Below, piece by piece: positions 4,691 to 49,773 of a stretch of 64,000 nt of DNA. The notes beneath the pieces are model-generated. The model saw only the letters and a list, made by a program, of their open reading frames with translations. It did no database searches and was not told the DNA's origin. The stretch covers positions 52,242,645 through 52,306,644 of the forward strand of contig OU744731.1 in assembly GCA_916613615.1 (NCBI GenBank), given 5' to 3'. Source of the stretch: Steromphala cineraria (taxonomy: Eukaryota; Mollusca; Gastropoda; Trochida; Trochidae). Positions within the stretch are counted from its first letter, which is position 1; each line of letters opens with the position of its first letter. The translations under genes and the position numbers were made by a program.

Positions 4691-4696
4691 GTTTAA

Positions 4697-5052: not shown

Positions 5053-5065
5053 TTGTGTATTTTAA

Positions 5066-5687
5066 AGGGGCAGTAGCACGTTTTTAGGGGGAATATAAGG
5101 TGATATCAGGAAAATGAAAATAAATGGTTCCAATTGAAAGACAATGTATTAAAAATAAATGGAGCAGTAATAAATCAAATACATAATGTAGAGTTTAGCC
5201 ATGCGATTCCTTTTTCTTACACAAAATGAATTAAAGGTGTTCACACAAGATGGCCGTTATCAGCGTTCAGTAGTGTTGGACAAACTGCTGTGACTATGTG
5301 TCTCAGTTCACCAAGCTGTAAATGGGTACCCTGTGAGGCATAGAATGGTCCCTAAACTGAGCGCCAATTATGGATGCCGGTTGAATACTCCCCAGGGAGT
5401 TGAATTGGAAAAATGATTCGACAGTGAAAGAATGCTATTGACCAGGGGAAACAATGTAAGCGCCTTGAGCAACCACTAGTGGATGGATATGTGCGCTATA
5501 TGAATATCCTAATAATAAAAATAATAATAATAGATTTTAGATGAATTCTCATACTTTGTCCTCGGACTATGGATGATTTGTTTGTGTAATGAGATTTTTT
5601 ATCTCAAAATAATATATTAAGCATAAACGTACAATTATCAGTGAAAAAATTCAAAAAATCAAATTAAAAAAACGTGCTACTGCCCCT
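5066..5687. repeat. TTAA-flanked MITE, family P, copy 2, split by a SINE
   Basis: The inverted ends AGGGGCAGTAGCACG and CGTGCTACTGCCCCT are flanked by TTAA at 5062-5065 and 5688-5691. The internal sequence matches the copies at 28958 and 39737 but is interrupted after ATGGCCG (5256) by about 275 bases of SINE-like sequence. It lies head to tail with copy 1. Confidence 0.75.
5257..5533 (+). repeat. SINE-like insertion inside MITE copy 2
   Basis: The insert contains CAAGCTGTAAATGGGTACCC, shared in reverse with the SINE at 475-824. It ends in the typical tail GCGCCTTGAGCA... GTGCGCTATATGAATA followed by (AATAAT)n. Its boundaries are inferred from the uninterrupted family P copies. No tRNA head is recognisable, so it may be 5'-truncated. 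Confidence 0.6.
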
Positions 5688-6933: not shown

Positions 6934-9900
6934 TTAGGTATATGGCGACTGTTGAAAGGTGCTGTTAGTCACCTGTTGGATCTGTTGGTGTTGTTCTGTT
7001 GGACACATGTTGTTGTTCCGTGTGTAGATCGTTGCTATCTCCAAAGCAAATGAAATATGTTCTGTCCGACAAACAGGTAAATCTTCAAGCTTCTCCACCA
7101 GACACGCGTGGTCACTGAAACACAGAATGTTGACATATTATACTAATCTGATAGGAACAGTAAAATTACTTTGGTTGTTATAATAAAACTGAATATTTCT
7201 TTAAATTCAAATATATTATTCAAAACAACAAACATTTGACAACTTCGTTGGTTCATTTTGTTGATTTCGTTACGGTTCAACGTCGTCGACTCATGAGAAT
7301 TTATCATAATTATTCATAATCATAGTGGAATTTATAAATGATGAGAAGCGGCCATGGCTCGTTTTGGACGGGTTTCCTTCTTTAATTATAAATCATTAAG
7401 ATTTATTTTCAATTCTCATTGTTTATCGAAATGTTTTTAAGCTCCCGAATGAGACTTGATACAGAAGGCATTCATTTGTGGCGTCATGAGGTCTATTCAC
7501 TAGATTTATATGACACCAATAGAAAGGTTAACTTCCAAAACAACATATGGATTGACAAAAAATTTAATAAGAATTGATTGAAATTAGAAACTAAATAGAA
7601 AAGAAATTTTAAAATGTGAGAAGAGATCAGAGATTATGGCTGATTCTTGTTTAGGCTTGTATCACGCTAGAGTTTGTGATATCATACTGTACAAATGTTA
7701 CAATACTGCTACTTCTTAAACATTAAAAACATCATACAATCTTTGACAAAGTCTAAAATACTTTTGCGGACACTATGAAATTCACTATATAATCAAAATA
7801 TTCAACATAACAACAGAAACTTTAATCTTTTACTTTTAAGGAAGCATTTAGAATATCTCACCACAGGTCACAGTTCCGAAGAACTTGGGCTCTGTCTGCG
7901 ATCTCCATACAGTCTCGTCCCGTCACCACAACTGTTACAATACTTAGAGATGTTAAAATGTCATTTTTCATATCATACCTCAAATCAGCACGAGAAAAAT
8001 GATGGATGAAAAGTTTTGAAATAGTAAGGTATAGTAATATGTATAACAAAACGTTCATGCTTTCAAGAGTTAAGTGTGAGAAAGATACTGTGCGCAGCTC
8101 TGTTTTTTCAAATTACAAAACATCCCATATTATCAATAGTTATATTATGTCAAGATATTCATAACGTGTAACAGATATGACTACAAATACCTAGAAAGGG
8201 GGGGGGGGGGGGGGGGGGGGGGTGGTCAGGAGTATCTAAGCAGTGTTAAGATCAGCCAAAGTCTTGTATATCGGACATTTACGTTGTTAAGTACCGTCTA
8301 ACGCCTTACATTTACTGTCTTTATGTGTTACATTAAAGTCCATTGGTCAGACTTGCATATCAAGCTAAGCCTTCCGAAATATTGTGGCACAGGAGCACAT
8401 AGTCGGGGAGAAAAATCTTTCAGGAAATGTTTGATACCAAAATCAGATTGTTTGATAAACGAGAAAGTACCTAACTTGAATTTTGAAGCATACCACCCTC
8501 AAAAACTTGCCGTAGCCTTAAACGACCCCACAATCAGTGACATCACTGTTTCATGCGTAGGATTCACCTCACTTCCTGTTTATCGAAATCATGGCCTCAT
8601 GGAAATAACTGCTCGAATATTTGTCTACAGTTGTCGGATCCAGATACATGATTTCAATACCTATACGTTTTGCGAAAGTAGGACGCATAAAACCAAACAA
8701 AAATCCTGTATTAACTGTCAAAAGTTGAACATATGTATCATATCCTACAATTCACTGAACCGTTTAAGCAAATAAATCACGAAAAAAAAAATTACAATAA
8801 AGGTTTTTATCTTTATTTCCAAAGGTATTCTTATTGTCCAAGTTTTAATCTCTGGAAATCAATACACACCTTGAATATATTTGCAATTAAGCTAAACCTA
8901 AATAACTATGCAACCATAAAGAAATTTTGCAATAACTGCTAAAATGCATTCAATTGTTTGATAATATTCAAATATAATTTCGATTATTATAGAACATTTG
9001 TTTATGTAAAATACAAACATATGGCTAAAAAATCCACAAACTTTCTTGAATGAATGAGTATTTTATAAATCAGAATTCAATTCATTTAATGATGTCACAA
9101 AATCCAGTTCAGCTTTCTTCCTCATTTAGAAGAGTTCTATTCATATATTTAGATATATAATGTACATGTATTAATAATGAAATAAATCTTTTGGTAAACA
9201 AATCTACTGCTTTGGAACAATGAAAACTTGAAATTCACCTCTTTGATTGCTACAGAGTGCTTCCTTAATCTCCAGTTGGTTCATGAAGCGACTGCGCGTG
9301 CGCAGGTAATCACTTCCGGGACACGCATCTCGGATACCTTCCACGCATGCTCTGTCAGCTTGGAGTGTAGCATTGCTGAAACAGAAAATGTAACGTAAAA
9401 AGATGGCTTTTGATAGCAACATTTCTTTTGATTAAATTCAGTGATGTATGAATTATAATTCAAGTAATTATAAATACTAATTCATGATATACTGAGAGAA
9501 TCTGTCAAGTGGTAATATATGTTTCTGATTTTTAAATATGGGTTATGTAATACTCATTTAGTGGCTCATAGTGTTCATTACATGAATGTTTATTGGATAC
9601 AAGAATATTTATGTATTATTTCAATCTCATTAAAATAATATCATTATTTTGTTTCACTTTGTTATATGCGTGACTTAGTGTGGCAATCATGAAATCCAAA
9701 ACTAATTATATAATCATGTGAAGATGGCGCGTTATAACCCTCAAACAGCTCTAATGCGATATGTTTAAAGTGTAACATCGTGTATTTTTTTGTCAAAAGT
9801 TGTCAATATGTAACTGCATACATAACGTTTTTGAAAGTTTACATCTAAAAGCTAATCAGTTATATGGAATGAAATATAATGTTAAAAGTCGGTATTGTTA

Positions 9901-18259: not shown

Positions 18260-20450
18260 ACACATCTTGTTAATTTCAAAACTCTGAACTATTATTGACT
18301 GAAATCGTTGATATTTATTATCAATTACTGATAAAAACACTTATAAAATGCAGATATATAATCAATTTAAATTTTATTTTGATATAAATTAGATAAAGAC
18401 TTCGCGTATATATCGTAACATGATCGGTAAGTAATATGATATTTATAGATATTAAGTGAAATTGTTAAATTATTGAAGGATATTCTGGACGATTTCACGT
18501 CCACCTGTTACGACATTGCAATGCAATTCATAACATATTGTTTTGATAACTTTTCTTTATTTATACGTATAATTTAAAAAAAAAACTAAACATTTCTTAT
18601 AATTTGGTATTTCCTGTCGGTGTTCTGTTGAAGTAGTACTTCTAACCCGGACTTTGGTATCGTGCTGTATTTTGCAAAATCAAACTACAAAAAGACAGAA
18701 ACAAATTACGCAATTTCACTGATAAACAAACCCACATACATTAGAAATTATTTATGTAAAAAAAACCCGATGTTTTCCTAGATGTTTTTGAACTGAAAAT
18801 CGCATTGCAGGGATTCATTTCCGGGTTGGTTAATAGATAGCTATCAAATTTTATGGTCAATGTTGGGGTTATTCCTTTCAACCATTGCTTCAGAGAGTTA
18901 TTTACAGACATTTTGCAAGTTTTTACATGGATTCGTCGAGTGGTATGGCCGCTACAACCCTCGGTGTTTATTTGTCTGTCAGTGCTAATAATACGACAGA
19001 CGCCATTTTGCGGGCCGTGTTTTCCACAGTTGACGTCACACATTCCATCGGCAACAATCGAGATTTTCCCGGTCTTTTCCGTAAAACAAAATGGCCGCCA
19101 CGTCAAAAAGCGACGTAAACAGTACAGTTTTTCGCCTTCTTTTACGATTTTCATGAAATATACTTGATTGTGATGGCAAAGATGTGTATTGAATTGATCG
19201 CTTATAACTTATCAATGCGAGTTTTACGTCTTCAAAATGTACATGCTAAGCATTGTGAAGATATATGAACGCAGTTGGAGCAAAATCACCCGGGAGTTGC
19301 GCTTTAATATCATTTAATAGGAATAAAATTTGTATTATGCGAGCCTTTGGCGAGCATAATACATATATTTTTATTCCTATTATATGATATTAATGATACG
19401 GCAACACACGAGGTTAATAATTTCTTTATCATATAATGTCACTTTGAAATAAAAGGATTTAAACGAAATATGATACCTTCTTAAAAAAATTTTTACCTAG
19501 ATTTCGCGGAGTAATTGCTTTCACAATAAACCAAGGTGAATTCATATTGTCGGCGATGTACAGTTGTGAACAGTCTAGAAATATTCCTTCATGAAATGAT
19601 TTTTTTTACAGTGATAGAAACGTCTCCTTCAATCTATGAACATTTTCAGTCTGATTTCCAATGCACGAGTAAACATTGTATTTTTTAATTACACAAAATG
19701 TGTAAGAACCAGTTGTCAACGTCGCTACAACAGGGGAAGTAACTCTAACTGCATTTTGAAAAGCTGCATTGTCATTGTTGTTACGCCAGTTCAGTTACGG
19801 TATCCTTAGACTAAACGTCGACTATTTGCGAAGGTGAGGTTGTTGCGTTTGTAACTACGCTACTAGATAATCTGTACTATCACTAGAATATGATTTGTTT
19901 ATGCTGATAAGTTGTTAACCGACACGACCAAAGCGATCTAGGCCTATGTTATGCACGAAAATTGAAGCACCTATTTTTTCGATAGCCGATATTGTTAGCT
20001 GCATATCGTTTTATTTTTAAACGCACAATGAAAACAACTTGAAATGCTTCGATAGCCAAGCTATTTATAAAATACGAATGCGTGATTAGTTTACGATATT
20101 TTTTTCGATAAAAAACCCACAAAACCTGAAAACTCCCGACGACGTTATCAATGTTTAGAGACCGGTTTAGGACTCGCATGACATGCATGGAGTTTTGAGA
20201 AAATAGTTCGGGTTTTGACCTCATTTGCATTGTTTTCAGGGATCTGATAACATGATTACAAGATGGGTTTATTGCACAGATAACACTGCCCATTATATGA
20301 TAATATACTGTACATGTCAATAAAGTGAAGATGTCTTTAGAAGGCCATGTGAGTTTCAAAGTCGATATTAAAATTTTGATGTATATTTTCCCCAAAAAGT
20401 CACAAATCTTTAGATATTAATAACATAGTATTTTGGCATTTGCTAATTTG
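18260..20450. other. intergenic, repeat-derived; no supported gene
   Basis: It holds several short open frames on both strands (the largest 148 codons, 20395-19949 minus) without recognisable motifs. There is a hairpin at 19306-19393, with its outer repeat ends GATACGGCAACACAC and GGAGTTGCGCTTTAATATCA. The 5' UTR exon or exons of the TRIM-PARP gene should lie here or further left. Confidence 0.5.
19306..19393. repeat. 88-bp hairpin
   Basis: TAATATCATTTAATAGGAAT... GTATTATGCGAGCC is mirrored by GGCGAGCATAATAC...ATTCCTATTATATGATATTA around the centre at about 19347. Confidence 0.8.
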
Positions 20451-20486
20451 ATGTTATTTGTGTCGTTTCAGTGTCCCATCTCAAGA

Positions 20487-23400
20487 ATGGCAGAATCTAA
20501 GCCAATGTTAGACGTTGATGATCTACAGGACACGTTTTTGGAGTGTCCCGTGTGTGTAGAGCACTTCAATCAAACAGACCGACGCCCTCGCCTGCTGAAC
20601 ACATGCCTGCACGCTTTTTGTACCCCTTGCTTGGAAAAGCTTCTTCAGAAGGGACAGATTACGTGTCCAGTCTGCAGGCGTGTTGACAAGATACGAGGTA
20701 AAGCAGATGGTCTGCGCGTTGACCCCGTGAGAAGCAATTTGATTGATTACTTACAGATGAAACAGAAGAAGGGTGTTCTTTGCACAGAATGCAATGAAAA
20801 TACTGCAGTTGCAGTATCGCAATGTAAAGAATGCAAAGCTTTCCTTTGTAAGCAATGTGACTTTATCCATAAGAATCACCGTGTCAGTCGAGGTCATACA
20901 ATCATACCAGTGGAAGAGGTCTTGAAGCAGCCAATGAAGAGCTTTTCAAAGGGCCGCTTCTGTGAAATCCACCCACAACACCAGATCGAGTTCTTTTGCA
21001 CAACTGATGGAAAGCTTTGCTGCGTCTCCTGCACTGTTCTAGATCACAAGGGGCATAATCTCCAGAAACTGAAGGAATCGGCTGACGACAAGAAACGAGA
21101 ATTGGAGGCTGATGTTTGCAAGCTACAGCATGTAAAAAATGGTTTTAAGATTGTAAAGGTAGAAGAAGAGAGACAGAAGAAGACAATCAAGGACACAAAA
21201 GCAAAATCACTGGCAGATATAGAGAGCATGTTCAATGAAATTCAAAGACGAGTCAAAGAGAGGAAAAATCAACTGATTGCTGATGTTATTGACAAAAGCA
21301 ACAACCTCTCTGCAGTTGTAGAAAAGAATGCAGAAGCAAATGATCAATCTGTAGCAACATTGGAATCAACGGAGACTTATTTCAGACAAGCCAGAGAAAA
21401 AGCAGATGAAGTTGACATGCTGCAGATGTACCCCTCGATCAAGAGGAGTCTGACAGGTCTGGGAGGACCACAACAAGTTCCTGATTTTGAGGCATCTATC
21501 CAAGACTTCACGTTCCAGAAGACAAGTACAGATGAAGTGGCAACAGTGACATCTCAGTTGGGACAATTCTGTAAGTTTATTTATTTATATGCTTCACTTT
21601 ACTTGTTGTATCTTATTTGTCTTGTTTTTAGGGAATTGTTACGACCACTTAATTATCGATTTGAACAAAAGTATAAAAATCAAGATGTACTTCTATCCCC
21701 CCACCCCAAAAAAAAATAATTTCATGAGATATAGAAACGACCCATGTCTGTTCGTCTGTGCGGGTTGTTCTTTCAACCTTATTGAAATTTTCACTGGAAA
21801 TGACTTTTATATTTGGTACTATTTCAGACTTTATAAATTAAAAGAAATAAGCCAAGCTCATTGTAAGTTGAATATCGAACAGTGGATATTATAATTTACC
21901 ATGTATCCGCGAGTTTGATATGGAGATTTATCATGTGTCCGAGTTAAATATCAAACTCGAACTTTATCATGTGTCCGAGTTAAATATCAAACTCGAACTT
22001 CGTTCTCGTTTGATATTTAACTCGGACACATGATAAATCTCCATAACAAACTCGCGGACACATGGTAACGAATTCATCTTGACGAGCACCTTTTCTAAAT
22101 GCCTTAAATCTGGGTTGAAAGATGGGATTGGCCAAAATGATCAGTGTTACTCTTTTATTAAGGTATTTACAAATATAATTTTTAAACCATCGTGTTAATG
22201 TACCAAAAGTATGGTCTAGTACCGGAGCGAAGCGCACGGTACTAGATAGAAATTTAGGATTTACGAAAAAAAATCAAAATACCGAGCATTGCGGGCATTC
22301 CTATATTTTGATTGTTTGGTCACGTGACCTCGTGCACTCGCACCACATTCGATTTAAAGCGGCCGTAGAAGCCCCGTTACTGTCATGGCGGACTGTCTAG
22401 TAGGGCCGAGCGAGTTTGACAGTGTCGGAGTATTATAGATAAGACAGGCATCATAGCAGAATGTACAGGTTGGTTTGAGAGTACAATAAACAAATAGCGG
22501 TGACTTTTAACTTAACTGATGTTCATAGATCGGCTTTCTGTTTGCGTGATTTGAATCTTGAGCTCGCCGATAGCCAACCTTGCTGCGAGTGAGCGGGTCC
22601 AAATGCCGTTGAGATGCCGTATGACTTGCTAATGTATTTTAGCGGTACCAATCTTTTATTTGAAGAACATTTTACTTATACCTTTAAAGTTAATACATAA
22701 AGATGACTTTAGCATTTAGGGGAATTCACCAAGCATACATGACGTAACAGCAATCGAGCGAAGCGTAGCCTTGTTTAGCGAACAAAGGGCAAGGGAGATA
22801 ACTCTTGACTCCGTCGTTGCTTGTTACTGGGGGAGCGCGTGGCCCAGTTTAACATAGCTAAATATACCTACGGCTCGTGACCGGTTTTGACCAATGGTAA
22901 GCCGACATTGCTGTGCAAGTCGAGATAAATAAAGTAAATCGTTTTGTGGTTTCAACTTCTTGTTACGTTTGTGTTGAATAAATGGAAAGTATTACGCAAG
23001 TTTGGTTCTAGGCCAGAACTCAAAAAGAATAGCTCATTTGCATATTCTGTTTTCTTTTGGTTTCTATTCACTTATATATTTTGAAGTTTCCAGCGAAACA
23101 CAAATTGGAATTTGTTTCCGGATCAAACTCTATCATCATTTCTTAGGGTGCTTTTTATGTTTTCGACTTCTTCAGAAAAACAGGTTCCCAGCGGGGATCC
23201 TTAAAACCTTAGCAAAGCAAAGTGAAACTCACAATATTTAACAACTAGATAGTATGCATTCATTATCAAGATCTGCTTATGGGATCATTTTGAACTGAAT
23301 ATTTAGTTATAAAGTGTTCCTCAAGAGAAAAGCTTCATATATGTTGTTCACTACCTATTCTGCTTGTTTTGTTGAATCTGAAAGGTTTGTTATCCTCTTT

Positions 23401-25733
23401 ATAAATGATTTTGAATGATGCACAATGATGATGAATGATGCTCTACCTTCCAAATTCAGTATGGCAGCATTTGACTTGATACATAAGCTCCTCCCACAGT
23501 GTTTTTAATTTTGAAAATGACTTGGGTACATGTATATATCAGTGACTTGCATATCCAAATGTGATATGATCCTAGTGAGTTTTCCCAACTTGTGGCCCTT
23601 GAGAAAGAGAATATGAATCAATCTCTTTGGGAATTCACTAAGACTATAACCTATAGTTACTCTTTTTCCACAACGATATCAACAAATACAAATAGTTTGC
23701 GTCAATAGGACAAACGGTTGATTTTTATGCTCTCGCAGCAGTTGTGATATTTCCTGGTTTTAATGGAAACAATTTAAACTAAGTGCACAAGCGGGGTTTG
23801 GACTTTTTTCTGTCTCACATTATTTTCAACATCTTACTTGGTATGTTCCATTAAGAATAAATATGCCGTTTGCTACTTTGTTATTTATAATTATTGACAT
23901 GTCAAATTTGTTTTATTGCAATATATTTACCATTTTGTAATAATCTTGTTAAGATTATCTCAGAAAAAACTTGTAAATAAAATTAAGATGATAATGTTGA
24001 ATTGGGAGTTGAGGGGGAACATCACATTGTATCAAATGGACGTATTTTAACTCTTATCTTATCCAAGCAGATAAGAGAGGGGAGGCCGCAATATCGCTGG
24101 ACAAGTCAACAATTCAGAAACAACGAAAGCAACTGAAAGGGGCACCGGGATCTATGAAACTAATTGATGAAATGGCGGAAATGTCAGAATTTTTGCCGCC
24201 TGCATATTGGAAAGACGATCAGACGAAAACTGGCTTTCGTAGATACAAGGATTTGGTGACTGTGGACAAAGCCACTTTTGATGCTATCGACAAAGTGATT
24301 CAGACGACATGGGATTCATCTCTCGTAGGGCGTGGTAAAGATGCAGTCAATCTTCACCACAGTAATATCAGAGTGAAGCAGATTGAGCGACTTGAGAACC
24401 CAGAACTGTTCAGGATTTATAGCCAAAGGCGTTCAGCCATGTTCAGGTCTGCACGCGATCAAGGAGGTCCTTTCACGCCAATAGAAAAGGTCCCTGGATC
24501 CAAACATGGCGTACGAACTACAGAGTGTGCACCCCCTGAGCTGCAGCGAGAAGTATATCCTGAGGTCAATGAACATTATCTCTTTCATGGCACGGAGATG
24601 GAGAACATACAAGCAATCTTTGCTCACGGTTTTGACCCACGTGTTGGCAGTAAGGGCATGTTGGGGAGCGGTGTATATGGAGCCGAGAGTTCAACCAAAG
24701 CAGACATATATACAGGTTTGTGGAGCTTGATTTTTGGATAGTATCTTAATTGGTATGCTTGAATACGCTCACCTAGAAAAGACATGCACGAGTAAAATGA
24801 ACTTAGCGAAATGGAAATAGCGAAATTTTAATGGATACTTTTTATCCGATGGATAAAAGTTATAGTGATTCAGCTACACTAAACACCTAATAACACTACA
24901 TTTGTAAAGCTAGCCCTAAAATGCCATTGCCCATTCATTGGAACAGATATTTTTTTGTTTTTATTATTTATTTAGTTATCTCTGATATCAGGTACTCATC
25001 AGGTGATCAGGTTTTGTTAATCAAAAGGTCATTTCAGGTGAAATTCTGACCAGTCCCTGCATATGACAACCGTTTTACCAAACAGATCCTTGATAACCTG
25101 CAATCCATATATTTTTCCAAAAAGGATCTATTTTGGATACGCCGCTAATGGCTAAAATATTGCCTAAGCGGCGTAAAACAATAACTCACTCACTCACTCC
25201 ATTTTGGATTAAACTAATGCTTTAAAGTATCAAACTAAATGTCGCAGTCACGGCGTGCACTTGATTTGATATACGACCGACAGCAAATAAGGCGAAGATT
25301 AGGCAGGCACAAAGGGAAGATTGAAGTAACTGGTTAAATATTTGCAATGCGTGCATATTTTTGCATTGTATCACTGATTGATTATGGCTATGATAATCCT
25401 GCTATCCACCGCTATTTTGTCATACACAGTATGTCTATCTCCTTAACAATCAGTATCTCACATTCAGATGATAAGAGAAACCGGACACCGACTGACAAGC
25501 AGATGTTGTTGATGCGAGTCCTGTTGGGTCAGCCCCTTATCACCAACAGACCTAGAGACTACTGTCGACCTCCTTGCAGAGATCTCCGACATCTCGATGA
25601 CAAGTGTAGACAACAGCATCGCGGTTTCTTTGATTCTGTCATTGCCGATGGCCCATTTTATTTCAGAGATGTTGTTGTATACGATGGTGATGTCTGTTAC
25701 CCTGAGTATGTAATAACTTACACAAGAGTGTAA
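20487..25733 (+). CDS. TRIM-PARP fusion: RING, two B-boxes, coiled coil, ADP-ribosyltransferase
   Basis: Exons 20487-21570, 24071-24715 and 25468-25733 join in phase 1 at both junctions (TTC T|AT and ACA G|AT) to 664 codons. Residues 20-63 form a C3HC4 RING (C20, C23, C40, H42, C45, C48, C60, C63). Residues 99-131 look like B-box 1, 159-190 are B-box 2 (FCEIHPQHQ...CVSCTVLDHKGH), and about 195-330 is a coiled coil. From about 395 to 664 is a PARP catalytic domain: LFHGT with H534, GSGVY with Y564, Y575, and YPEYVITY with E656. This gives a complete H-Y-E triad as in PARP1 and tankyrases, so polymer formation is possible. It would be a RING E3 carrying its own ADP-ribosyltransferase. The start is the ATG shared with the duplicate; an acceptor 16 bases upstream implies a 5' UTR exon. 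Retaining the first intron would give a TRIM-only product. Confidence 0.75.
21886..22945. repeat. unit-1-specific insertion with long hairpin
   Basis: Unit 2 passes directly from GAACAGTG(A) to TTCAACTTCTTGTTACG, while unit 1 has about 1.05 kb between. The insert contains the hairpin at 21897-22068 and a palindromic GTACCGGAGCGAAGCGCACGGTAC near 22217. No coding potential. It may be a DNA transposon relic, or sequence lost from unit 2. Confidence 0.65.
21897..22068. repeat. 172-bp near-perfect inverted repeat
   Basis: The arm ACCATGTATCCGCGAGTTTG...ATCATGTGTCCGAGTTAAA... AAACTCGAAC is mirrored at 22003-22068. Inside one arm GTGTCCGAGTTAAATATCAA is itself repeated directly (about 21935 and 21974). 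Confidence 0.85.
25130..25200 (+). repeat. SINE tail with (TCAC)n
   Basis: AAGCGGCGTAAAACAATAA followed by CTCACTCACTCACTC in the second intron of TRIM-PARP. The same segment is present in unit 2 near 41760-41812. This tail style is frequent in mollusc SINEs. Confidence 0.6.
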
Positions 25734-26034
25734 TTTATGAGACTTCTGTGTGTTAATTGTCATCATTGTAGATTTGCATGACATGTCTGGACATACAACT
25801 GTGTTTCTTTTATCAAATTAGCATAACGGGCTCGTGAGAGGGTCATTTTGACAAGGGAACTATTGATACATGCCAAGCATTTCAATTGTGTCACTTTGAT
25901 TTGTAACAATTTTGCATAAAATCCGACTCCAAATATTGAATTCCAAATATCAGTACTCAGATCTATTTTGTGTTCAATCTGCTTGCTCGCATCATTTACA
26001 CCATTCTCCTTATTTAAGCCAAGGAGCAACTCCA

Positions 26035-26040
26035 AATAAA
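26035..26040 (+). promoter_or_regulatory. polyadenylation signal of TRIM-PARP
   Basis: AATAAA about 300 bases after the stop codon at 25733, conserved in unit 2 (about 42668). Confidence 0.5.
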
Positions 26041-26880
26041 ACAAAGTTTTCTACTGGACCAAACATTCATAAGACCACCAATATGAAATCTGCAAATCAC
26101 ACAAATGTTAATGCCAATGATTCAATGGCATAAAACAGATTTTGCCCTCTTCTCTGGAAGAAAAAGTCGAAAAGGCTTAGATCTTTTGTAAGATACCCTG
26201 GCCAGTGAGGACGGCAAGCTGTTCATTTGGTGAATGTCGTCCTTCAAATAGGTCCTTCGGGTCATGTCCTTAAAACCTATTTCTGAAGTCTAACATCTCA
26301 TCTGCAGCATTATGAACTATGGAAATGGTGCCATTGAAGCCAATTTTTAGAGTCTAAGGTTGATTAGGGGCCATGCCCTAAACTCTTTGTATAACCCCAC
26401 AGAAGAAACTTCCCATGACATGATTTTGACTGATACCTTGACTTTGAATTTGTGATGCCTTTGTTGTCCCTATTGAGAGGGTTTAAGGGAGATTCATTTT
26501 GGATTTCTTCAGAAATAGAAGCCCTTGAAAAATGAAACTATGTTCACAGACTCTGTGTCCATGTGGTATTCTCTTTTGTTATGCACGGGAATGATGGCCT
26601 ATACAAATGACATATTTTTTAACCTCCGGTGATGACCTTGTGGTTCCAAAGAAAGTCCCCAGGATTATTCTTGAGCACCACAAGATGGCCCCATCATATT
26701 ATATTTGTTATGTTGCCTCTCCATACCATGTAGATGTGCCCTAGAGCTTTAAGCTTTATTTCAATAGCATTTATTCTGTTTCCTTGGCACCAATTTTGTC
26801 ATTTTGTCTTTTGGATGGGTATTTTATGTTTCAACAGCTCAACTTAAATAAAACCAATCATCAACTTAACTGTCTCCAGA
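26041..26880. other. unique-looking duplicated spacer
   Basis: No gene seen. The sequence is almost identical to 42674-43520 and contains phrases such as TTAGGGGCCATGCCCTAAAC that resemble mollusc intergenic repeats. Confidence 0.5.
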
Positions 26881-26888
26881 TGTAGACC

Positions 26889-27856
26889 ATCCTGTAAAAC
26901 AGGCGTCTTTATTTCTTTTGCTTCACTTCGAAATAGACCCTGTAGCCATACCCGTTATATCCGCCGATTCAGCAAAACGGAAAGTCCATTTTCTATTAAT
27001 AGTACACCAATCAAGAAACGCGTCTCATTTAAATGCAAGGAGCTACCAACTGAAGGTTATACACGGTGCAATAACTCTTCGACTCGAGAATTGTTGTCTA
27101 TACTTTCTTTACTATGTATATTATCTAATAAATCGATGTTATTTTATGAAATATCGAAAGTTTGAAGTATGTTAGATATAGTTTGATGACCTGAAGTTGA
27201 CAAGAGTCTTTAATAAAAGTGTTTCATAAATGATTAACATGGCTTGTGGATGTACAATTCATATTATTCATTGGGCCTCTTCATCTCACTCACTCGCTCA
27301 CCAACCCTTTCACCCACACCCACCCCCTCATTCAATAGTTATGCAAGAGCTCTATGCTTCATGTGAGTAATGTGCGCCTGTGTAAGCGTGCCCTAGTCCC
27401 TGACCCAACTTATCGCACATTGACATTACTCTCAAATGCTGCGATTTTGGTACGTTCAGCAAACCGCTAAATTGTAAGTCTTGTATTTTCAGAGAAAAAC
27501 ATTTGTGCATATTAAAAAATTTGCATAAAACAAATATACAATGGTCAAAATTAAATTCAGCACTGAACCATTATGCAAACAAATGCAATGATTTATTAAA
27601 ACTAGATGTCGACATATTTGTGTTTAAAAAATACATTAACAACGAGCCGGAAAAGGTTGATTAATGAGTAATGAGAGTAAGTTTATTCGAAACGGGGCGT
27701 TACACGTCAATACAAGGAAAGCGTTGATTGGATCTATAGATAAGCCATAGACTTTACTGTGATTGGTAGCTGTCGTGTCGGAGAATATGAAGGGTATGGC
27801 TACAGGGTCTATTTCGAAGTGAAGCGAAAGAAATAAAGACGCCTGTTTTACAGGAT
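26889..27856. repeat. foldback element F, 65-bp inverted ends (unit 1)
   Basis: The left end ATCCTGTAAAACAGGCGTCT...CTGTAGCCATACCC (26889-26953) is mirrored at 27792-27856 with about one mismatch. The interior has no conserved protein; the 150-codon minus frame at 27636-28088 runs through the repeat end and is taken as chance. The same element is at 43527-44501 and one end is at 33957-34022. Confidence 0.8.
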
Positions 27857-28125
27857 AGATGTAGACGTGAATTTTGCTTGTTTGAGCCATTTGTTTGATT
27901 TTGATATGTTTGCTGTTTCCATCAACAACTAAGCATAGACTTGGAAGTGTTTCATTGTATTGGTTTGAGAAATTATGGGTGGAGGAGAAAAATGTTTCAA
28001 CGCGAAATAACACTCTAGTTTCCATGTAGAAAGAGAGTGAAGGAAGGATTGTATTGTCGCTTACATGGTTTTTAAGGTACCTGATCAACCTAAAAGGATA
28101 TATGTATATAACAGGATGGGATGGC

Positions 28126-28137
28126 GATGAGCAGCTA

Positions 28138-28172
<35 letters not shown>

Positions 28173-28300
28173 AACATTTGTATAGCGCCAATATCCAGCT
28201 CAGAGGGTGCTGCTCAAAGGCGCTTTGTTTCCCTCGATCGTTGGATATCAGTCTTTACGACACTTCTTTTACCATCTCGACTCCCGGGGGAGCATACAAA
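28126..28300 (-). repeat. SINE 3' part with (TAG)n tail (unit 1)
   Basis: (TAC)12-like tract at 28138-28172, then GTATAGCGCCAATATCCAGC and GTGCTGCTCAAAGGCGC. On the minus strand this is the familiar ...GAGCAGCAC...GGCGCTATAC tail. It is related to the SINE tail at 475-540. Confidence 0.65.
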
Positions 28301-28957
28301 CATACAATTTGAATAACAAAAGGAGAATGTACATATATCAAATATAATAGATTTCATATTTCTTATTTTGAGAAAGTTCAATGAATTTACATTTGACAGT
28401 AGCGTCTCCCCCAAATAATGTTTCTGTTATGTCCTATACATTTTTAACATTGAATGATGTAATAAAATACAATCTGTGGGTTTGCCTGCGTGGCTAATCC
28501 ACGTTCAATATATTGGAGGCCAAACATTTTCTCAAGTTCCAAAGGTGATTTTGTAATTACTCCATAGTGTTACACTATTATGTAAAATATAAATGTTCTG
28601 TACTTGTTTGCCATTTTCTAAGATCAGTTATAGTCCGAATTGCGCGAAAAACTATCCATCCTTTTCAATAAGTTCACGCGTCTTATAATTTTAAGGAGGC
28701 ATGCAGTGTTGAGTTACAAAAGATAACATGAATTTTGTGAAATATGTATGTTTTGTACAAAGTCATTTTATCAGTTCAAACTTTGTCCGACCAATTAGGA
28801 AGAAAATTTTCATTCCATTTTTGTCAATTTTGTTTGCTGTTTTGCAATTGCTGTTTTTTATGCTAAGGGTTTGGGTGCCGTTCCACAAAGCATTTTTAAA
28901 GTTACGATCGATTGTAGTCCATTCTTTTGACATTAATTACAATCGATTGTAGACTAA

Positions 28958-29310
28958 AAGAGGCAGTGGCACGTTTTATGGGCGAATATAAGGTGATGTC
29001 AGGAAAATGAAAATAATGGTTCCAACTGAAAGACAATGTATTTATAATAAATTGAGCAGTAATAATTCAAATACATGTAAAGTTTAGCCATGCGATTCCC
29101 TTTTCTTACACAAAATGAATCAAAGGTGTTCACACAAAATGGCCGCGGATGGACTTTATGTGAATCTCTATACTTTGTTCTCTGACTATGGATGATTGGC
29201 TTGTGTAACGAGATTATTGATACTTTCAAAATAATACATTTAGCATTAACGTACAATTATCAGTGAAAATTTTAGAATATAAAATTATCAAAAAACGTGC
29301 TACTGCCCCT
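28958..29310. repeat. TTAA-flanked MITE, family P, copy in unit 1
   Basis: The left end is AGAGGCAGTGGCACG (one decayed TTAA before it) and the right end ACGTGCTACTGCCCCT is followed by TTAA at 29311. It is present at the matching place in unit 2, so it predates the duplication. Confidence 0.8.
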
Positions 29311-29319
29311 TTAAGATCG

Positions 29320-30230
29320 GTGGAAGTGTTTAGAGGAACGGGACCCTGGACTAGGCCCTATAGAACGTCTGAGTTATTGGAAATAAAAAATTTTTTAGTT
29401 GGTCAGGGTTGCATGGTTGAGGTTATTTTTTCACCCTAATGTTTATTTTTGACGGTTTCGGTTTGCATTGAAACGTAATTATAACTTAGAATTCCGTTTC
29501 CTCACAATACTGAAAAAAACTATAAGATCTAGCTCAGTGATACTTGATATTTGGATCAATTTGGACATTCAATTTCACGGGATGGTTATTTGTAGCGATG
29601 TTTTTTCATCATTGGGGACAGGTTGGATACCTGTATGTCATCTTCTGGTGATCCTTATAAGATATGTCAATGTTGTTTCAGTCTTTTGTTTTTGTTTTGT
29701 CATTGCCTGCTTATGTACCTTGTGAATAAATTGTTACACTTCAGTATTCTATAACCATGAAAACTAATGCGTATTACTAATAAAGAATTTTATACCAATG
29801 TGTATGTTCATCTTTATATCCTGAACGTTTAAGATTAATTGTGTAAATACAAAACACTCTGATTGTATTTATATGCACATTATTATTAGGTGCGTTATGC
29901 TTTGCTACTAAAATCATGAACGACTCGAAGGAAATCTTATGTGTCGAGTCAAAGGAGATACCTTTCTGTTCTTGTTATATAATATTAATTAAACTTGTTC
30001 ATTTTCTGAAAAAAAAGTAAATAAAATAAATATTTAATTAATAATAAGAAAGGAAATCCAGAGAAATGATTATTTAGACAAGGTACGCTTATAGAGAGGT
30101 TCAGTCAACCTCAACGCTTTAGTATCCGCATGGTTCTAAAGTACCCTAAACAGGCCAAATGCCTGGTGTTACGGCATACAATACATACAAGGTGCCAAAG
30201 TAGTTAATGGAAGAGGAGGAAGAGAAGGGT
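29320..30230. other. non-coding duplicated spacer
   Basis: No gene recognised. It corresponds to about 48005-48910 of unit 2. Confidence 0.5.
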
Positions 30231-31040
30231 GAATGTTCCTATTGAGGAAGAAACAGTAATGCAGAGCATGTTTGCAGAAAATTCAAACATTCTGACTCAA
30301 AAATTCAGCTTGGATGTTACATATAGGCCATAGCTGCTGCCTGGCAGAAAATAACTGATGTGGTTTATGCGACTGGGGTCTGCCACCTAACTGTCGACCA
30401 GGTGAAGAAGAAATGGGGCAACATGACCCCAGAGGCTAAATTTAACGGACTACAGAAATCAGCAGAAGAAGATAAGATAGTGATAAGAAAATAAATGTTG
30501 CAACAGCGAATATAATTAGCCACAGCGTCTTTCAGTGGCGTTCCAGGCGAAATTGACACTCAAATCATCACATGTGGTAAGAATACTGTCACCACTTTTG
30601 CAATAAGCAGTTATCATGAAGTTTAATGCTCACTGTTTATAATAATATTACTTTAAATTTGAAAAATGTTTATTTCATGGACAGTGACATCAATTAACAA
30701 GTTCAAACAAAGCAATATACTTTAAGGAAACATGTAGTGAGTTTACTGCCGCTTCAACCAGTGTTTATTCCACAAAAATGATTCAATATGTATATTTCAA
30801 TCACAGGATAACACTACTTTCAAGATCTTTAATAGTGCTACTATGTCTCATCTTTACAGACTTACTCATCCCTGACCCTGTTGAGACTGTTGAGCAAGCC
30901 TACTGCCCTCCCATCCAAACTACATCAAGTAGGTCTCACGGTGCGTCCATTGAGCAACCAAGAACTCACTTCAAGAAGAGTTCCATCAAGACCAAGAGGA
31001 ATAACCAACTGCCATTGAATAAACAAATAATTAATGCACA
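30230..31040 (+). pseudogene. Myb/SANT-like DNA-binding protein of a PIF/Harbinger element (unit 1, decayed)
   Basis: Around 30340-30430 the frame reads QKITDVVYATGVCHLTV and QVKKKWGNM, the end of a Myb/SANT-like three-helix DNA-binding domain found as the second gene of PIF/Harbinger transposons. A following exon-like piece begins at about 30860 (ACAG|ACTTACTCATCCC, DLLIPDPVETVEQA). Frame changes before the domain and deletions relative to unit 2 mark it as dead. The nuclease gene lies convergently at 31311-31541 and beyond. Confidence 0.6.
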
Positions 31041-31310
31041 TTGAGTTGTATTCCTTTTTTCATCATTGACTTAACCTGCTAGCAAGCATTATCACTGACA
31101 CTGTACTACATTGTGATAGAGCAATCGAAGGGAGGCAATCTAAATTTGTTATTATCTCCCTTTAACCATGAGCAAATCATATTGTGAATCTTTCATAACA
31201 AGTGACTTTACACAATGTTTAGGTAACATGGTTAAGTTTGTGTAGTTTCATGCAGAACTTTATATGTGTATGTTTTTTAACCATCTCAAACTCATACTTT
31301 AAATGAACTA

Positions 31311-31541
31311 TTATTTTGGATACATATTAATATTTTCATAGTGAGTAAGAAAAATATTTGCTATGTGATCTCTGATAAATTTTCCATCATTGCGCTGTCC
31401 TATGTAGTTGTCTATTGGTGACTGATCTTGTCGGACTTCCGGGTCTTCGACATCCAAATTTGTATTACGCATGATGGCTACCTTGTGTAAGATGGCACAG
31501 GTAATGATGATCTTGCACACCTTGTCTGGTTTCATGCGGAG
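31311..31541 (-). pseudogene. HARBI1-like nuclease, last exon (unit 1)
   Basis: After an acceptor TTTCCATAG the exon reads LRMKPDKVCK... CAILHKVAIMR and ends at TAA, 76 residues. This is the C-terminal part of the PIF/Harbinger DDE nuclease (family pattern: lysine-proline, then Cys-x-hydrophobic-LHN/K). It is open here. The preceding exon, still present in unit 2 at 51976-52109, has lost its centre in unit 1 (about 31811-31890), so the gene is not functional. Confidence 0.65.
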
Positions 31542-32029
31542 CTATGGAAATTCAAATAACACATATTCATAAATGAAGATTAAATTCAATGAGACACTAC
31601 TCTAATAGAAATTTGTTAATAGGATAAAACTGTGTGGATTTCTGAAAATATAAAAACACATTATGCAAGCCTTGGTCATTAATATTACTAATCAAATTTG
31701 AATAGTATTGTAAAACGACCATTCAAGAAACACATATTCATATCTTGCAATCTGAACTTGCGTTTGGTTTTATACCTTCTTTAAGTATATATTAAACACA
31801 AATAAAATCACTTTTTAGTCCGCACAGGCCGTCGTTGAACCTCTCGCTTGCCCTGAGGCTGGGTGTACGGTGTGAGTGGGTACGGCCTGTTAATATAATA
31901 TGAATATCTTTATCTATTGAATCATTATTTTTCCGAATTTATTGAACAAAATTTTCAAAATCATTAGTATATTTGGACAAATATGTTTGATTGTTACAGA
32001 CTCATTGGCTCTGTAGCTATTTATTTTTT

Positions 32030-32560
32030 GCTGTAGGGTATGGGCCAATGTAATTTCCCCCTTTGTATGGGCCACAGGGTCACAAATCTTAGAATTAAGT
32101 ATATAGGCGATGTGATTTCAGATACCTGAAATCAATTCAGATATGGAAATTGCTCAATTATCCAATTGATAATTTATAGTATAGGATCCAACGGTTCACC
32201 AAGCCCTTTTCAGGGGCCATATGGTCACCAAAACCGTCTATTATAATTCTCAATAGTAGGAGTCTGTACGCAACATTTCAGCTTTCCAGGCATTTTGCTT
32301 CCGGAGAAGAAAATGAAAATAGGTTTCAAGGGCATGGCCCCTATAAGGGGCCACAGGGCCATCAAGCTATAAATCACAATACTCGCTTGTCAAAGCGTCT
32401 GAACACAACGTTTCAGCTTTCTAGGCCTAATGCTTCTGGGGAAGAAGATGAAAATAGGTTTTGAGGGCGTGACCCCTGTGTCCCTTATTTGGGGCCACGA
32501 AAGCTATAAATTATAATCCCCTCTTGATGAGCCAGATGAGCTAAAAAGTAAAAGTTTACA
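32030..32560. repeat. about 140-bp tandem repeat, three to four diverged units (unit 1)
   Basis: Units share TTTCAGCTTTC(T/C)AGGC, AT(G/T)CTTC(C/T)GG(A/G)GAAGAA, GGGGCCA(C/T)AGGG and GCTATAAAT(T/C)ATAAT. The same array is in unit 2 at about 52240-52720. Confidence 0.6.
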
Positions 32561-33299
32561 ATTTATATAAAACAAATTATAAGTTATTCTATCGGCATGG
32601 ATATCCACTGTCTCCTAATGTGAAGAAGTCAGAAATTCTGTGATGATTTTCTTTTAAGTGTGTTGTGTTGCCTCTAAGGTTGAAAATCTTGAATATGTGA
32701 CTGTAATGAGTTATGCTTGAAATACTTACGATTGGATATTCTCTCTATATTGGTCTTTGAGTTCAAAGTATCGTTACAGGTTATCTGTAAAATTGGTGAT
32801 ATAACAACGAATATTATAAAGAAAGGCAGGTGTTTAAAACTTGTTTTCCGTATTGTTTACATGTTGCCTAGTAACGCTAATTTTCAAACGTGAATAGACA
32901 TCACAGAAAGTTTTTTTTAGATATATGGATAAGTTCACTGTACTATGGTGAATGTTATAGTAGCTATGAAAAGTCTAAGAAAAACTCCTAAACTTCTGTT
33001 TGGAAAGATCCCGATGTTAAGAAATGCTAAGTCGCCTTGATTAGTTTCTCCCTTTGGTGCGTCCATTGGATAAAGGTTACCTGAGTTGATGAAGCGCAGC
33101 GTAATACACTTAGGGAACCAGAATGGGGAAACAGTGCGTTTTTACGTAAGATCGACGTGGGCAAGGGCAAGTAACTCCTAGTAATTGCACGATCGAATGA
33201 TTCAGAACATGTTGTGTGTGACAACACTCACAAAGTCATCCTTTTCACATATAAACACATTTCTAAACATGTTTTGAGTTGAACACGTATAGAACATGT

Positions 33300-38461: not shown

Positions 38462-38566
38462 ACGTCACCATGTTTTAGAACCTACGCAGGTATTATTATT
38501 ATTTATTTGTATCGTTTTAGGGTCCCCTTATAAAGTGAAATGAGCAGTATTTGATTAAACGCAAGG

Positions 38567-41500
38567 ATGACAGAATCTAAGCCCATGCTAGACGTTGATG
38601 ATCTACAAGACACATTTTTGGAGTGTCCCGTTTGTGTAGAGCACTTCAACCAAACAGACCGACGCCCTCGGCTGCTGAACACATGCCTGCACGCTTTTTG
38701 TACCCCTTGCTTGGAAAAGCTTCTTCAACAAAATGGGAGAGGACATATAACGTGTCCAGTCTGCAGGCGTGTTGAAAAGATCAGAGGAAAAGTAGATGGT
38801 CTACGTTTTGATCCCGTTCGAAGCAGTTTGATTGATTACATACAGATGAAAGAGAAGAAAGGTGTTCTTTGTACAGAATGCAAGGAAAATACAGCAATAT
38901 CCCATTGTAAAGAATGCAAATCTTTCCTTTGTAAAGAATGCGATTTTGTCCATAGGCGCCACAGAGTCAGCAAAGGACATACAATCCTAGCGCTTGAGGA
39001 TGTCATGAAGCAACCAATAAAGAGCCTATGTAAGGGTCACTTCTGTGAAATCCATCCACAACACCAGATCGAGTTCTTTTGCACCTCAGATGGAAAGCTT
39101 TGCTGCGTGTCCTGCACTGTTCTGGATCACAAGGGGCATTACCTCCAGAAACTGAAGGAATCGGCTGACAACAAGAAACGAGAATTGGAGGCTGATGTTT
39201 GCAAGCTACAGCATGTAAAAAATGGTTTTAAGGATGCAAAGGTAGAAGAAGAGAGACAGAAGAAGACAATCAAGGACACAAAAGCTAAATCACTGGCAGA
39301 TATAGACAGCATGTTCAGTGAAATCCAAAAACGAATCAACAAGAGGAAATGTCAACTAATAGGTGAAGTATTTGACAAAAGCAACAACCTCTCTGCAGTT
39401 GTTGAAAAGAATGCAGAAGCAAATGATCAATCTGTAGCAACATTGGAATCAACGGAGACTTATTTCAGACAAGCCAGAGAGAAAGCAGATGAAGTTGACA
39501 TGCTGCAGATGTACCCCTCGATCAAGAGGAGTCTGACAGGTCTGGGAGGACCACAACAAGTTCCTGATTTTGAGGCATCTATCCAAGACTTCACGTTCCA
39601 GAAGACAAGTACAGATGAAGTGGCAACAGTGATATCTCAGTTGGGACAATTCTGTAAGTTTATTTTGTTTATAAGCTACACTTTACTTGTTGTATCTTAT
39701 GTGTCTTAATTACAGGTAATCGTTACGACCACTTAAAGGGGCAGTAGCACGTCTTTTGATAATTTTATATTTCAAATATTTAGCTGATAAATGTAAGTTA
39801 ATGCTAAATGTATTTATTTGACAGTGTAAAAAATCACATTACACGAACCAATCATCCATAGTCAGGGGATAAAGTTTGGAGATTCACATAAAATCCATTG
39901 GCGGCCATTTTGTGTGAACACCTTTAATTCCTTTTGTGTAAGAGAAGGGGGTCGCATGCCTATACTTTACGTTATATATTTGAATTAGTACTGCATCATT
40001 TAGTTTCAATACGTTGTCTTTCAATTGGAACCTTTCATTTTCATTTTCCTGACATCAACTTAAATTGCCCCTGAAAACGTGCTACTGCCCCTTTAATTAT
40101 AGATTTCAACAAAAGTATAAAAATCAAGATGTACTTCTATCCCCCCACCCAAAAAAAATAAAAATTTCATGAGATATAGAAACGACCCATGTCTGTTCGT
40201 CTGTGCGGGTTGTTCTTTCAACCTTATTGAAATTTTCAATGGAAATGACTTTAATATTTGGTACTGTTTCAGACTTTTAAAGCAATAGGCTTAGCTCATT
40301 GTAAGTTGAAATATCGAACAGTGATGTATAAAGTGATATTTTTTTTCAACTTCTTGTTACGTTTGTGTTGAATAAATGGAAACGCAAGTTTGGTTCTAGG
40401 CCAGAACTAAAAAAGAATAGCTCATTGGCATATTCTGTTTTCTTTTGGTTTCTATTCACTTACATATTGTGTAGTTTCCATCGAATCATAAATTGGAATT
40501 TGTTTCCGGATTCAACTCCGTCATCATTTCTTAGGGTGCTTTATTATATTTTCGACTTCTTTAGACATATTGTTTGGCTGTTTCCATGGAAAAATAGGTT
40601 CCGAGTGGAGAACCTTAACACCTTAGCAAAGCAAAGTGAAACTAACAATGTTTAACAATTAGTAGTACATGTATGCATTCATTATCAAGATCTGCTTATG
40701 GGATAATTTTCAACTATATATTTAGTTATAAAGTGTTTCTTAAGAGAAAAGCTTCATATATGTTGTTCAAGATATTTCACACTTCTGCCGACTGGCGTGT
40801 AATATAGCCTACTCATTCTGTTTGTTTTGTTGAATCTGAAAGATTTGTTATCCTCTTAATAAATGATTGTTGAATGATGCACGATGATGATGAATGATGC
40901 TTCACCTTCCAAATTCAGTATGGCAGTATTTGACTTGATAACTCAGCTCCTCCCACAGTTTTTTAATCTTGAAAATGATTTAGGTATATATAGTAGTGAC
41001 TTGCATATCCAAATATGATATGATTCTAGTGAGTGTTCCCAACTTGAGAAAGAGAATATGATTCAATCTATTGGTTACTTGTTTTCCACAACGACACATA
41101 CATGTACAACGACATTATCAACAAATTCAGTAGGACAAGCGGTTGATTTTTATACTCTCGCAGCAGTAATGATATTTCCTGGTTTCAAAGGAAACAATTT
41201 GAAGTAAGTGCATAAGCAGGGTTTGGACTTTTTTCTGGCTTCACATTATTTTCAACATGTTACTTTATATGTTACACAAAGAATAAATATGCTGTTTGCT
41301 ACTTTGTTACTTATTAATATGTCCAATTTGTTTATTGCAATATATTTACTTTTTTGTATTAATCTTGTTAAGATAATCTCTGAAAAACTTGTAAATAAAA
41401 TTAAGATGATAATGTTGAACTTGGAGTTGAGGGGAACATCACATTGTATCAAATGGACATATTTTAACTCTTATCTTTATCCAAACAGATAAGAGAGAAA

Positions 41501-41622
41501 AGGCCGCAATTCAGAAACAACGAAAGAAACTGAAAGGGGCACCGGGATCTATGAAACTAATTGATGAAATGGCGGAAATGTCAGAATTTTTGCCGCCTGC
41601 ATACTGCGTACTCATCAGGTGA
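38567..41622 (+). CDS. TRIM-like paralogue, PARP domain lost
   Basis: Exon 1 (38567-39653) encodes 362 residues with the same RING (C3HC4, LECPVCVEHF), two B-boxes and coiled coil as the unit 1 gene. The second exon keeps its acceptor at 41488 and phase but is cut: after FLPPAYC a 785-base deletion joins it to former intron sequence and a TGA follows at 41620-41622. The spliced product would be about 406 residues, a TRIM without ADP-ribosyltransferase. The exon also lacks 21 bases (seven codons) relative to unit 1, an in-frame change. RING and B-box 1 have diverged clearly from unit 1, while the last 270 bases of exon 1 are almost identical. The start ATG matches unit 1. Confidence 0.65.
39737..40092. 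repeat. TTAA-flanked MITE, family P, clean insertion
   Basis: Unit 1 has the empty site CCACTTAATTAT. Unit 2 has CCAC-TTAA-element-TTAA-TTAT (TTAA at 39733-39736 and 40093-40096). The element is 356 bases with inverted ends AGGGGCAGTAGCACG. This shows a TTAA target duplication, as in piggyBac-type transposition, and that insertion came after the segmental duplication. Confidence 0.9.
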
Positions 41623-42100: not shown

Positions 42101-42366
42101 ATGATAAGAGAAACCGGATACCGACTGACAAGCAGATGTTGTTGATGCGAGTCCTGTTGGGTCAGCCCCTTATCACCAACAGACCTAGAGACTACTGTCG
42201 ACCTCCTTGCAGAGATCTCCGACATCTCGATGACAGGTGTAGACAACAGCATCGCGGTTTCTTTGATCCTGTCATTGCCGATGGCCCATTTAATTTCAGA
42301 GATTTTGCTGTATACGATGGTGATGTCTGTTACCCTGAGTATGTAATAACTTACACAAGAGTGTAA
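42101..42366 (+). pseudogene. orphan last PARP exon of the unit 2 TRIM gene
   Basis: This 266-base exon retains its acceptor (CACTTTCAG) and frame, coding DKRNRIPTDKQ... YPEYVITYTRV, but the exon with the catalytic His and Tyr is gone. Skipping the truncated exon would still join it in frame to the coiled coil (all junctions are phase 1), giving a TRIM with an inactive C-terminal PARP remnant. Confidence 0.7.
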
Positions 42367-43520: not shown

Positions 43521-43526
43521 TAGACC

Positions 43527-45969: not shown

Positions 45970-45979
45970 TTAAGATCGG

Positions 45980-49740: not shown

Positions 49741-49773
49741 GAATAAACAAATTATTTATGCACATTGAGTTGT

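Follow-up and report, generated by a model that had tools for sequence, protein, structure and literature searches.

Signalling by ubiquitin and by ADP-ribose intersects in antiviral defence, for the most part via separate partners. The DTX3L-PARP9 complex couples the writing of the two marks, but does so with two chains and with a Deltex-type rather than a TRIM-type E3, while the Deltex module itself links ubiquitin with ADP-ribose. The tankyrases carry ankyrin repeats and a SAM domain, without an E3 domain. A Dictyostelium clade 3 PARP has an N-terminal U-box and a macro domain according to two papers (PMC2964712, PMC4245714), in one of which it is named DDB0232928 and, elsewhere in the same paper, DDB0393590 (PMC2964712). 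For Aplysia, a further paper lists 22 TRIM genes and 17 PARP genes separately (PMC9334734).

In the current study, we analysed a 64,000-nucleotide stretch of contig OU744731.1 of the gastropod Steromphala cineraria (hereafter the window), in which a sequence-only reading had proposed a TRIM-PARP fusion. We conclude that the locus is probably a three-exon gene, the predicted product of which is a TRIM E3 ligase carrying a PARP-type ADP-ribosyltransferase in place of the usual substrate-reading C-terminal domain. The coupling of marks proposed here is the same as that of DTX3L-PARP9, but in a single chain. The Dictyostelium PARP resembles the candidate in joining an E3-type domain to a PARP domain in one chain, but differs in possessing a U-box instead of a TRIM module and an additional macro domain; since its host belongs to the Amoebozoa, this joining was probably independent. 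TRIM and PARP in one chain appear, from the domain matches, to be a new pairing of known parts. A literature search of titles and abstract openings, thin on subscription papers and preprints, gave nothing on TRIM-PARP or TRIM-Deltex proteins among the matches listed, and a phrase search of the papers covered had no match for TRIM-PARP.

Gene structure and splice signals

The candidate gene comprises the following features:

20472..20486, + strand: probable 5' UTR portion of exon 1; the TTTCAG acceptor preceding it implies an upstream UTR exon
20487..21570, + strand: exon 1, encoding RING, B-box 1, B-box 2 and coiled coil (residues 1-361 and the first base of codon 362)
21571..24070, + strand: intron 1, GT-AG, phase 1
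24071..24715, + strand: exon 2 (645 nt), PARP domain with LFHGT (H534) and GSGVY (Y564)
24716..25467, + strand: intron 2, GT-AG, phase 1; the homology of relatives runs through the junction
25468..25733, + strand: exon 3, completing the PARP domain and containing D644, the terminal YPEYVITY and the stop codon TAA
26035..26040, + strand: AATAAA, a possible polyadenylation signal about 300 bases 3' of the stop

Splicing in silico yielded a joined product of 664 aa and confirmed the exon borders, the phase-1 donor T/GTAAGT of exon 1, the phase fit and the open exon 2 that had been reported earlier. Exon 2 begins at 24071 behind its acceptor (CCAAGCAG/AT), is open in a compatible phase, ends with the donor ACAG/GTTTGT and is symmetric, with phase 1 on either side. 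Agreement of phase alone is expected by chance in one case out of three. At the local base composition, 215 successive codons without a stop at a specified position have a probability of approximately 2.5e-7, which, together with the strong homologues of both halves, argues that the TRIM and PARP open frames are not due to chance. The implied upstream UTR exon was not found.

Splice sites were scored with a splice-site matrix and ranked among all AGs and donors of the window. On this scale the acceptor at 24071 ranks 68th of 3262 AGs, that of exon 3 is weak (566th of 3262), and the donors of introns 1 and 2 rank 256th and 164th of 3583. The acceptor at 24071 had been described as the next usable one; the site and its phase fit stand, but "next" was too strong, since three AGs within intron 1, with exon starts at 21632, 23176 and 23739, obtain higher scores. 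These sites, the weak exon 3 acceptor and the six polyadenylation-type motifs (AATAAA/ATTAAA) of intron 1 speak against the fusion.

The TRIM half and its relatives

In the joined 664 aa protein, Pfam matches to RING (zf-C3HC4, E=1.1e-07) and to zf-B_box in two stretches (E=6.7e-13) exceed their curated cut-offs. All eight zinc ligands of the RING (C20, C23, C40, H42, C45, C48, C60 and C63) are present and are invariant across 18 aligned sequences. A structure model of exon 1 (mean pLDDT 74.7, pTM 0.42) contains a long helix at residues 195-305, while the RING is poorly modelled (pLDDT block means of about 39-53). The defining features of the TRIM family are present: a RING with all its ligands, two B-boxes behind it and a coiled coil, although for the coiled coil the TRIM_CC match (23.9 bits) falls short of the curated threshold of 30 bits. 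From these domains, the first half appears to be a TRIM-type ubiquitin ligase.

The nearest relatives of the gene are those expected if its bearer is a marine snail, probably one close to the abalones. Relatives of this exon are, among the 27 matches listed, mostly abalone (Haliotis) proteins; those among P0009-P0034 share the same RING/B-box/B-box/coiled-coil module at 40-51% identity and with a similar end residue. Identity falls within this range in 26 of the 27, P0035 reaching 64% over 26% of the query. Resemblance fades at about the exon 1 border, behind which other modules follow: 11 of the 27 end in a C-terminal Deltex domain (TRIM-Deltex, e.g. P0013 and P0019), two of these also bearing a macro domain (TRIM-macro-Deltex, P0012 and P0016), one has a PARP14-type RRM, one a DUSP, and in 14 no domain was found other than those of the TRIM module or an additional RING. 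A PARP domain follows in none. None of the 8, 27 and 82 matches listed by three protein searches, annotated abalone proteins included, has both domains, in line with the earlier view that the candidate lies outside the usual TRIM architectures; the 82-match search is of limited reach, having missed P0002, P0005 and P0007 though these are rows of its own alignment. The idea that one-chain coupling of ubiquitin and ADP-ribose is without precedent is weakened by the Dictyostelium U-box PARP and by the Deltex and macro modules on abalone TRIM relatives.

The PARP half and its catalytic triad

The PARP domain (PF00644) matches residues 459-661 of the joined protein with E=1e-13, better than the curated cut-off; exon 2 by itself scores 39 bits (cut-off 26.7), while exon 3 alone matched no Pfam family. 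Among the eight matches listed, at 33-50% identity, the closest are macro-PARPs from molluscs, several of which bear the names PARP14- or PARP15-like, the nearest being those of Haliotis rubra (P0003, 50%), Batillaria (P0001, 45%) and Pecten (P0002, 40%). These share the catalytic domain with the candidate, but carry a macro domain ahead of it and neither RING nor B-box. For P0004, another relative of this half, the solved fold closest to its structure model is that of the human tankyrases.

The NAD+-binding H534 and Y564 are both present. A complete H-Y-E triad had been claimed; alignment with PARP12 and tankyrase rules this out, as the Glu cited (E656 of YPEYVITY) sits in a terminal stretch shared with PARP12, which has a Glu of this type despite an Ile at its triad position. 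The triad column instead holds D644, in FRDVVVY, aligned with the Glu of human tankyrases (AEYVIY) and the first Ile of PARP12 SIFVIF, so that the triad reads H534-Y564-D644. Of the 40 relatives represented at this position of the alignment, 36 have Glu, two Ile, one Val and one Asp; P0001 and P0002 have Glu, and P0003 stops short of it. The adjacent V645 occupies a position at which most relatives have Phe. Since the triad Glu is replaced, lower activity is expected. In the counterpart substitution of PARP1, E988D, elongation is cut 20-fold and initiation is retained (PMC6486540, PMC10452840). Because of this effect, transfer of mono- or short ADP-ribose is likelier; of the "mono- or poly-ADP-ribosylation" put forward earlier, the former is thus favoured and poly-ADP-ribosylation is less likely given H-Y-D.

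A tandem copy

A second copy at 38567-42366, copy B, retains the TRIM-PARP order of the first, copy A, although the larger part of its PARP exon is gone:

38567..39653, + strand: copy B exon 1, intact TRIM frame with the phase-1 GTAAGT donor retained
41489..41606, + strand: copy B exon 2 remnant, 118 bases against the first 139 of copy A
42101..42366, + strand: copy B exon 3, with six amino-acid-changing and no silent differences from copy A

The remnant is 21 bases shorter, in frame, and soon runs into a stop; an equivalent of about 24210-24991 of copy A is absent. Between the first exons, dN/dS is 0.058/0.262 over 359 codons. As copy B has lost its PARP core while its TRIM frame is open and constrained, TRIM without PARP is viable, which also counts against the fusion. 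Two of the six changes in its exon 3 hit invariant positions of the relatives' alignment, and the triad Glu is Asp in both copies. A similar acceptor precedes copy B exon 1, the sequence farther upstream being unrelated. Conservation between the copies was rejected as proof of the exon borders, since intron 2 and the 3' flank are as identical (94-100% per 100 bases) as the exons, pointing to recent duplication or conversion rather than exon constraint.

Alternative explanations

TRIM and PARP exons are probably spliced into one mRNA, as inferred from phases and splice dinucleotides. They could instead belong to two transcription units, a TRIM-only gene that reads on to the stop at 21717 within intron 1, followed by an independent or damaged PARP gene, a reading to which the intron 1 polyadenylation-type motifs, the 14 listed relatives in which only a TRIM module or second RING was found, the lack of listed TRIM-PARP proteins and the PARP-less TRIM frame of copy B all lend weight. 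We regard it as unlikely: the 49-residue read-through tail has no equivalent in copy B, where the frame ends differently, the GTAAGT donor is conserved in both copies, and the frame behind the alternative acceptor at 21632 has stops in copy B. Moreover, the homology of PARP relatives is already evident ahead of the first Met in exon 2, and home-made profiles for macro, KH-like linker and RRM, run together with one for Deltex against all stop-to-stop frames of at least 20 residues in the window, revealed no macro, KH-like or RRM coding segment in intron 1 or elsewhere in the window. With the macro profile, built from nine segments, the best match in the window had E=0.92, so that the PARP14-like order of macro before PARP was not found. 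A macro-PARP gene hidden around the TRIM exon, which would then sit in one of its introns, was likewise sought by tblastn with eight PARP relatives and by the profiles, and none was detected. The Deltex profile, which contains a RING, gave only weak matches, to the TRIM RING (E=0.0017), to its antisense frame and to an IAP RING.

The fused chain might also be made with a PARP half that is no longer an enzyme but a binding or targeting domain. The Asp of both copies, the deviation at V645 in copy A and the loss of the PARP core in copy B would suit this proposal, which is compatible with the fusion; retention of the triad His and Tyr, the initiation and roughly one twentieth of elongation left to PARP1 E988D (PMC10452840, PMC6486540), the 645 open nucleotides of exon 2 and the 33-50% identity to relatives make it improbable. 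Skipping of exon 2, leaving as main product a TRIM protein whose 88-residue tail is encoded by exon 3, a product still open to copy B, would preserve the frame in both copies (645 nt, phase 1-1). Exon 3 alone would, however, encode a fragment of the PARP fold without a Pfam match, and the changes in copy B exon 3 look like those of an unused exon, six being too few for proof; we consider this very unlikely. The TRIM-PARP reading, by comparison, fits the phases, the splice signals, the border of TRIM homology and the same order in the tandem copy.

Proposed mechanism and significance

Judging from the two families, the coiled coil of the TRIM-PARP protein would form an antiparallel dimer, gathering two RINGs and two PARP domains; the RING would bring in an E2, and the PARP domain would bind NAD+ and add single or short ADP-ribose, likelier than poly-ADP-ribose on the predicted triad, to a partner, to itself or to ubiquitin. 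Both activities would be turned on when the protein clusters on a target, both marks being written by one chain, and those abalone relatives whose TRIM module is joined to Deltex and macro domains may be natural readers of such marks. An antiviral use may plausibly be conjectured by analogy with both families. Tentatively, the TRIM exon of abalone-like snails might be a swappable front end of a ubiquitin/ADP-ribose toolkit, to which recombination in introns could have joined a PARP writer (H-Y-D, short marks), macro readers and Deltex, giving single-chain hybrid-mark machines in immunity.

If one chain does hold both writers, it would offer a compact natural system for testing how both marks build on one target. 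A TRIM-PARP gene, alongside close relatives bearing Deltex and macro modules, would clearly exemplify modular exon shuffling among possible invertebrate immunity genes.

Gene structure of the TRIM-PARP candidate

The sequence-only reading had proposed a TRIM exon joined to phase-matched PARP exons, and inspection of the splice borders bore this out, yielding three plus-strand exons separated by GT-AG introns, each in phase 1, and joining to 664 codons up to the stop.

Coding exons of copy A
20487-21570, plus: exon 1, TRIM part (RING, two B-boxes, coiled coil)
24071-24715, plus: exon 2, PARP part
25468-25733, plus: exon 3, PARP part

The RING, two B-boxes and PARP domain exceeded the curated Pfam cut-offs, while the TRIM coiled coil was matched below threshold. 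The structure model of exon 1 contains a helix from 195 to 305, matching expectation for a TRIM coiled coil; the RING was poorly predicted in this model. None of the eight RING zinc ligands is missing, and an alignment of 18 sequences shows no variation at these positions. Exon 2 is bounded by phase 1 on either side and its length is a multiple of three. Given the local base composition, the chance of meeting 215 consecutive codons without a stop at a fixed position is approximately 2.5e-7, although homology is the stronger argument for coding status, as the TRIM part matched abalone TRIMs (E down to 1.1e-114) and the PARP part molluscan PARPs (E down to 1.5e-58).

Tandem duplication and other features

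Segments of 20482-33299 recur, patchily and with 81-97% identity, at 38562-53484, representing a large tandem segmental duplication in which the TRIM exon is again followed, in phase, by exon 2 and then exon 3.

Parts of copy B
38567-39653: exon 1, intact TRIM exon
42101-42366: exon 3, present

Exon 2 of copy B has kept its acceptor, and 118 of its bases match the first 139 of exon 2 in copy A (21 fewer, in frame), while an equivalent of about 24210-24991 is missing after this remnant. Since dN/dS for exon 1 is 0.058/0.262 between the copies, both TRIM frames were on the whole maintained by selection. The six amino-acid-changing and zero silent differences between the copies in exon 3 point to a loss of constraint, six changes being too few for proof. 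A reverse transcriptase fragment (RVT_1, E=1.8e-29; 37376-38464, minus) precedes exon 1 of copy B by approximately 100 bases and possibly cuts this copy off from its promoter.

Other features of the window
759-815, minus: tRNA-like match, possibly a repeat of tRNA origin (35.7 bits to Rfam RF00005, covering positions 8-63 of the 71 in the model)
4693-4891, 5062-5256, 28957-29315, 39732-40094, 45613-45974: repeat of approximately 190-360 bp
8302-8772: open frame with a FANCL UBC-like match below cut-off (19.3 of 23.8 bits)
19304-19393, 21896-22068 (the latter inside intron 1): imperfect self-inverted repeats, 81-82% identity
34268-34988: tandem repeat, units of approximately 165 bases
54922-55251: tandem repeat, yielding a repetitive open reading frame
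59486-62947, minus: probable inhibitor-of-apoptosis gene with BIR and RING matches (two BIR stretches at 62033-62947; RING and a sub-threshold BIRC2/3-type UBA match at 59486-60352)

Relatives of the TRIM module

The 27 database proteins matching the TRIM part are all from Haliotis except P0014, P0027 and P0030, which carry no given name. A Deltex C-terminal domain was detected in 11 of them (P0012, P0016 and nine other abalone proteins), two of which add a macro domain, while PARP14-type RRMs and a DUSP domain were each found in one, and 14 have no domain other than those of the TRIM module or an additional RING; a domain rescan of nine of the 27 returned the same domains. In P0025, from Haliotis rufescens, the TRIM module precedes a DUSP domain and a ubiquitin-like domain matched below threshold, parts usual in deubiquitinases. 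Several of these downstream modules are connected with ADP-ribose chemistry. When the first 480 residues of each match were aligned with both window copies, likeness ended within a few residues of the exon 1 end, or earlier in P0018, P0027-P0029 and P0035. Because the relatives diverge at about this border and carry different downstream domains, the TRIM module looks, at the protein level, like a unit joined to varied modules.

A probable single spliced chain

It is fairly likely that the TRIM and PARP exons are spliced as one chain, a reading favoured by the intron phases, the splice sites common to both copies, the family borders and a polyA-type signal approximately 300 bases past the copy A stop, as well as by the lack of an alternative partner, tblastn and profile searches having found no macro, KH-like or RRM partner for the PARP exons within 64 kb. 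Against fusion count six polyA-type motifs in intron 1, the existence of TRIM-only relatives and, by a splice-site matrix, three intron 1 AGs that outscore the exon 2 acceptor and a rank of only 566 of 3262 for the exon 3 acceptor. TRIM and PARP were combined in none of the matches listed for the PARP part (0/8), the TRIM part (0/27) or a third search (0/82; 58 PARP and 24 TRIM proteins). This absence is weak evidence against one-chain splicing, because the third search missed P0002, P0005 and P0007, database proteins whose segments sat in its own alignment.

The catalytic site

The complete H-Y-E site previously claimed, with the Glu of YPEYVITY as third residue, did not hold. PARP12, an H-Y-I enzyme, has the same stretch (YPEYVIQY), and profile alignment with PARP12 and tankyrase 2 rules this Glu out. 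The triad column instead corresponds to the first Ile of PARP12 SIFVIF and to the Glu of AEYVIY in tankyrase 2 (tankyrase being H-Y-E), REFVVY of molluscan relatives placing Glu in the same column, and the window has Asp 644, in FRDVVVY. Among the 41 lettered of 64 domain rows, the column holds 36 Glu, 2 Ile, 1 Val and 2 Asp, one Asp being that of the window. Copy B likewise has Asp; the change therefore probably predates the duplication, unless spread by conversion.

PARPs 6-8, 10-12 and 14-16, which work mainly as mono-transferases, are described as naturally carrying Leu, Ile or other residues instead of this Glu (PMC6486540). Since E988D in PARP1 is described as lowering elongation 20-fold (PMC6486540) and initiation only mildly (PMC10452840), the predicted enzyme would be expected to perform mono- or short-chain transfer, or to be weak.

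Precedents and significance

An E3-like domain and a PARP in a single chain, as proposed for copy A, have a precedent in Dictyostelium, where a U-box stands at the N-terminus of a PARP (PMC2964712, PMC4245714), and E2-type domains are described as fused with PARP6/8 relatives (PMC4245714). Oyster expansions join death-fold adaptors with KH, RRM, macro and PARP14-like domains, PARP14 being tied to the antiviral response (PMC8195603), and a Deltex C-terminal orthogroup appears in a bivalve gene-family table, presumably of expanded families (PMC8382680). Among the papers listed by literature searches, in a collection that includes only a minority of subscription papers, no title or abstract opening described TRIM-PARP or TRIM-Deltex. 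TRIM-PARP is probably a new domain combination from known families, and it would belong to a group of mollusc TRIM proteins with relatives that have taken up Deltex and macro modules as well; an antiviral function of the predicted protein is plausible.
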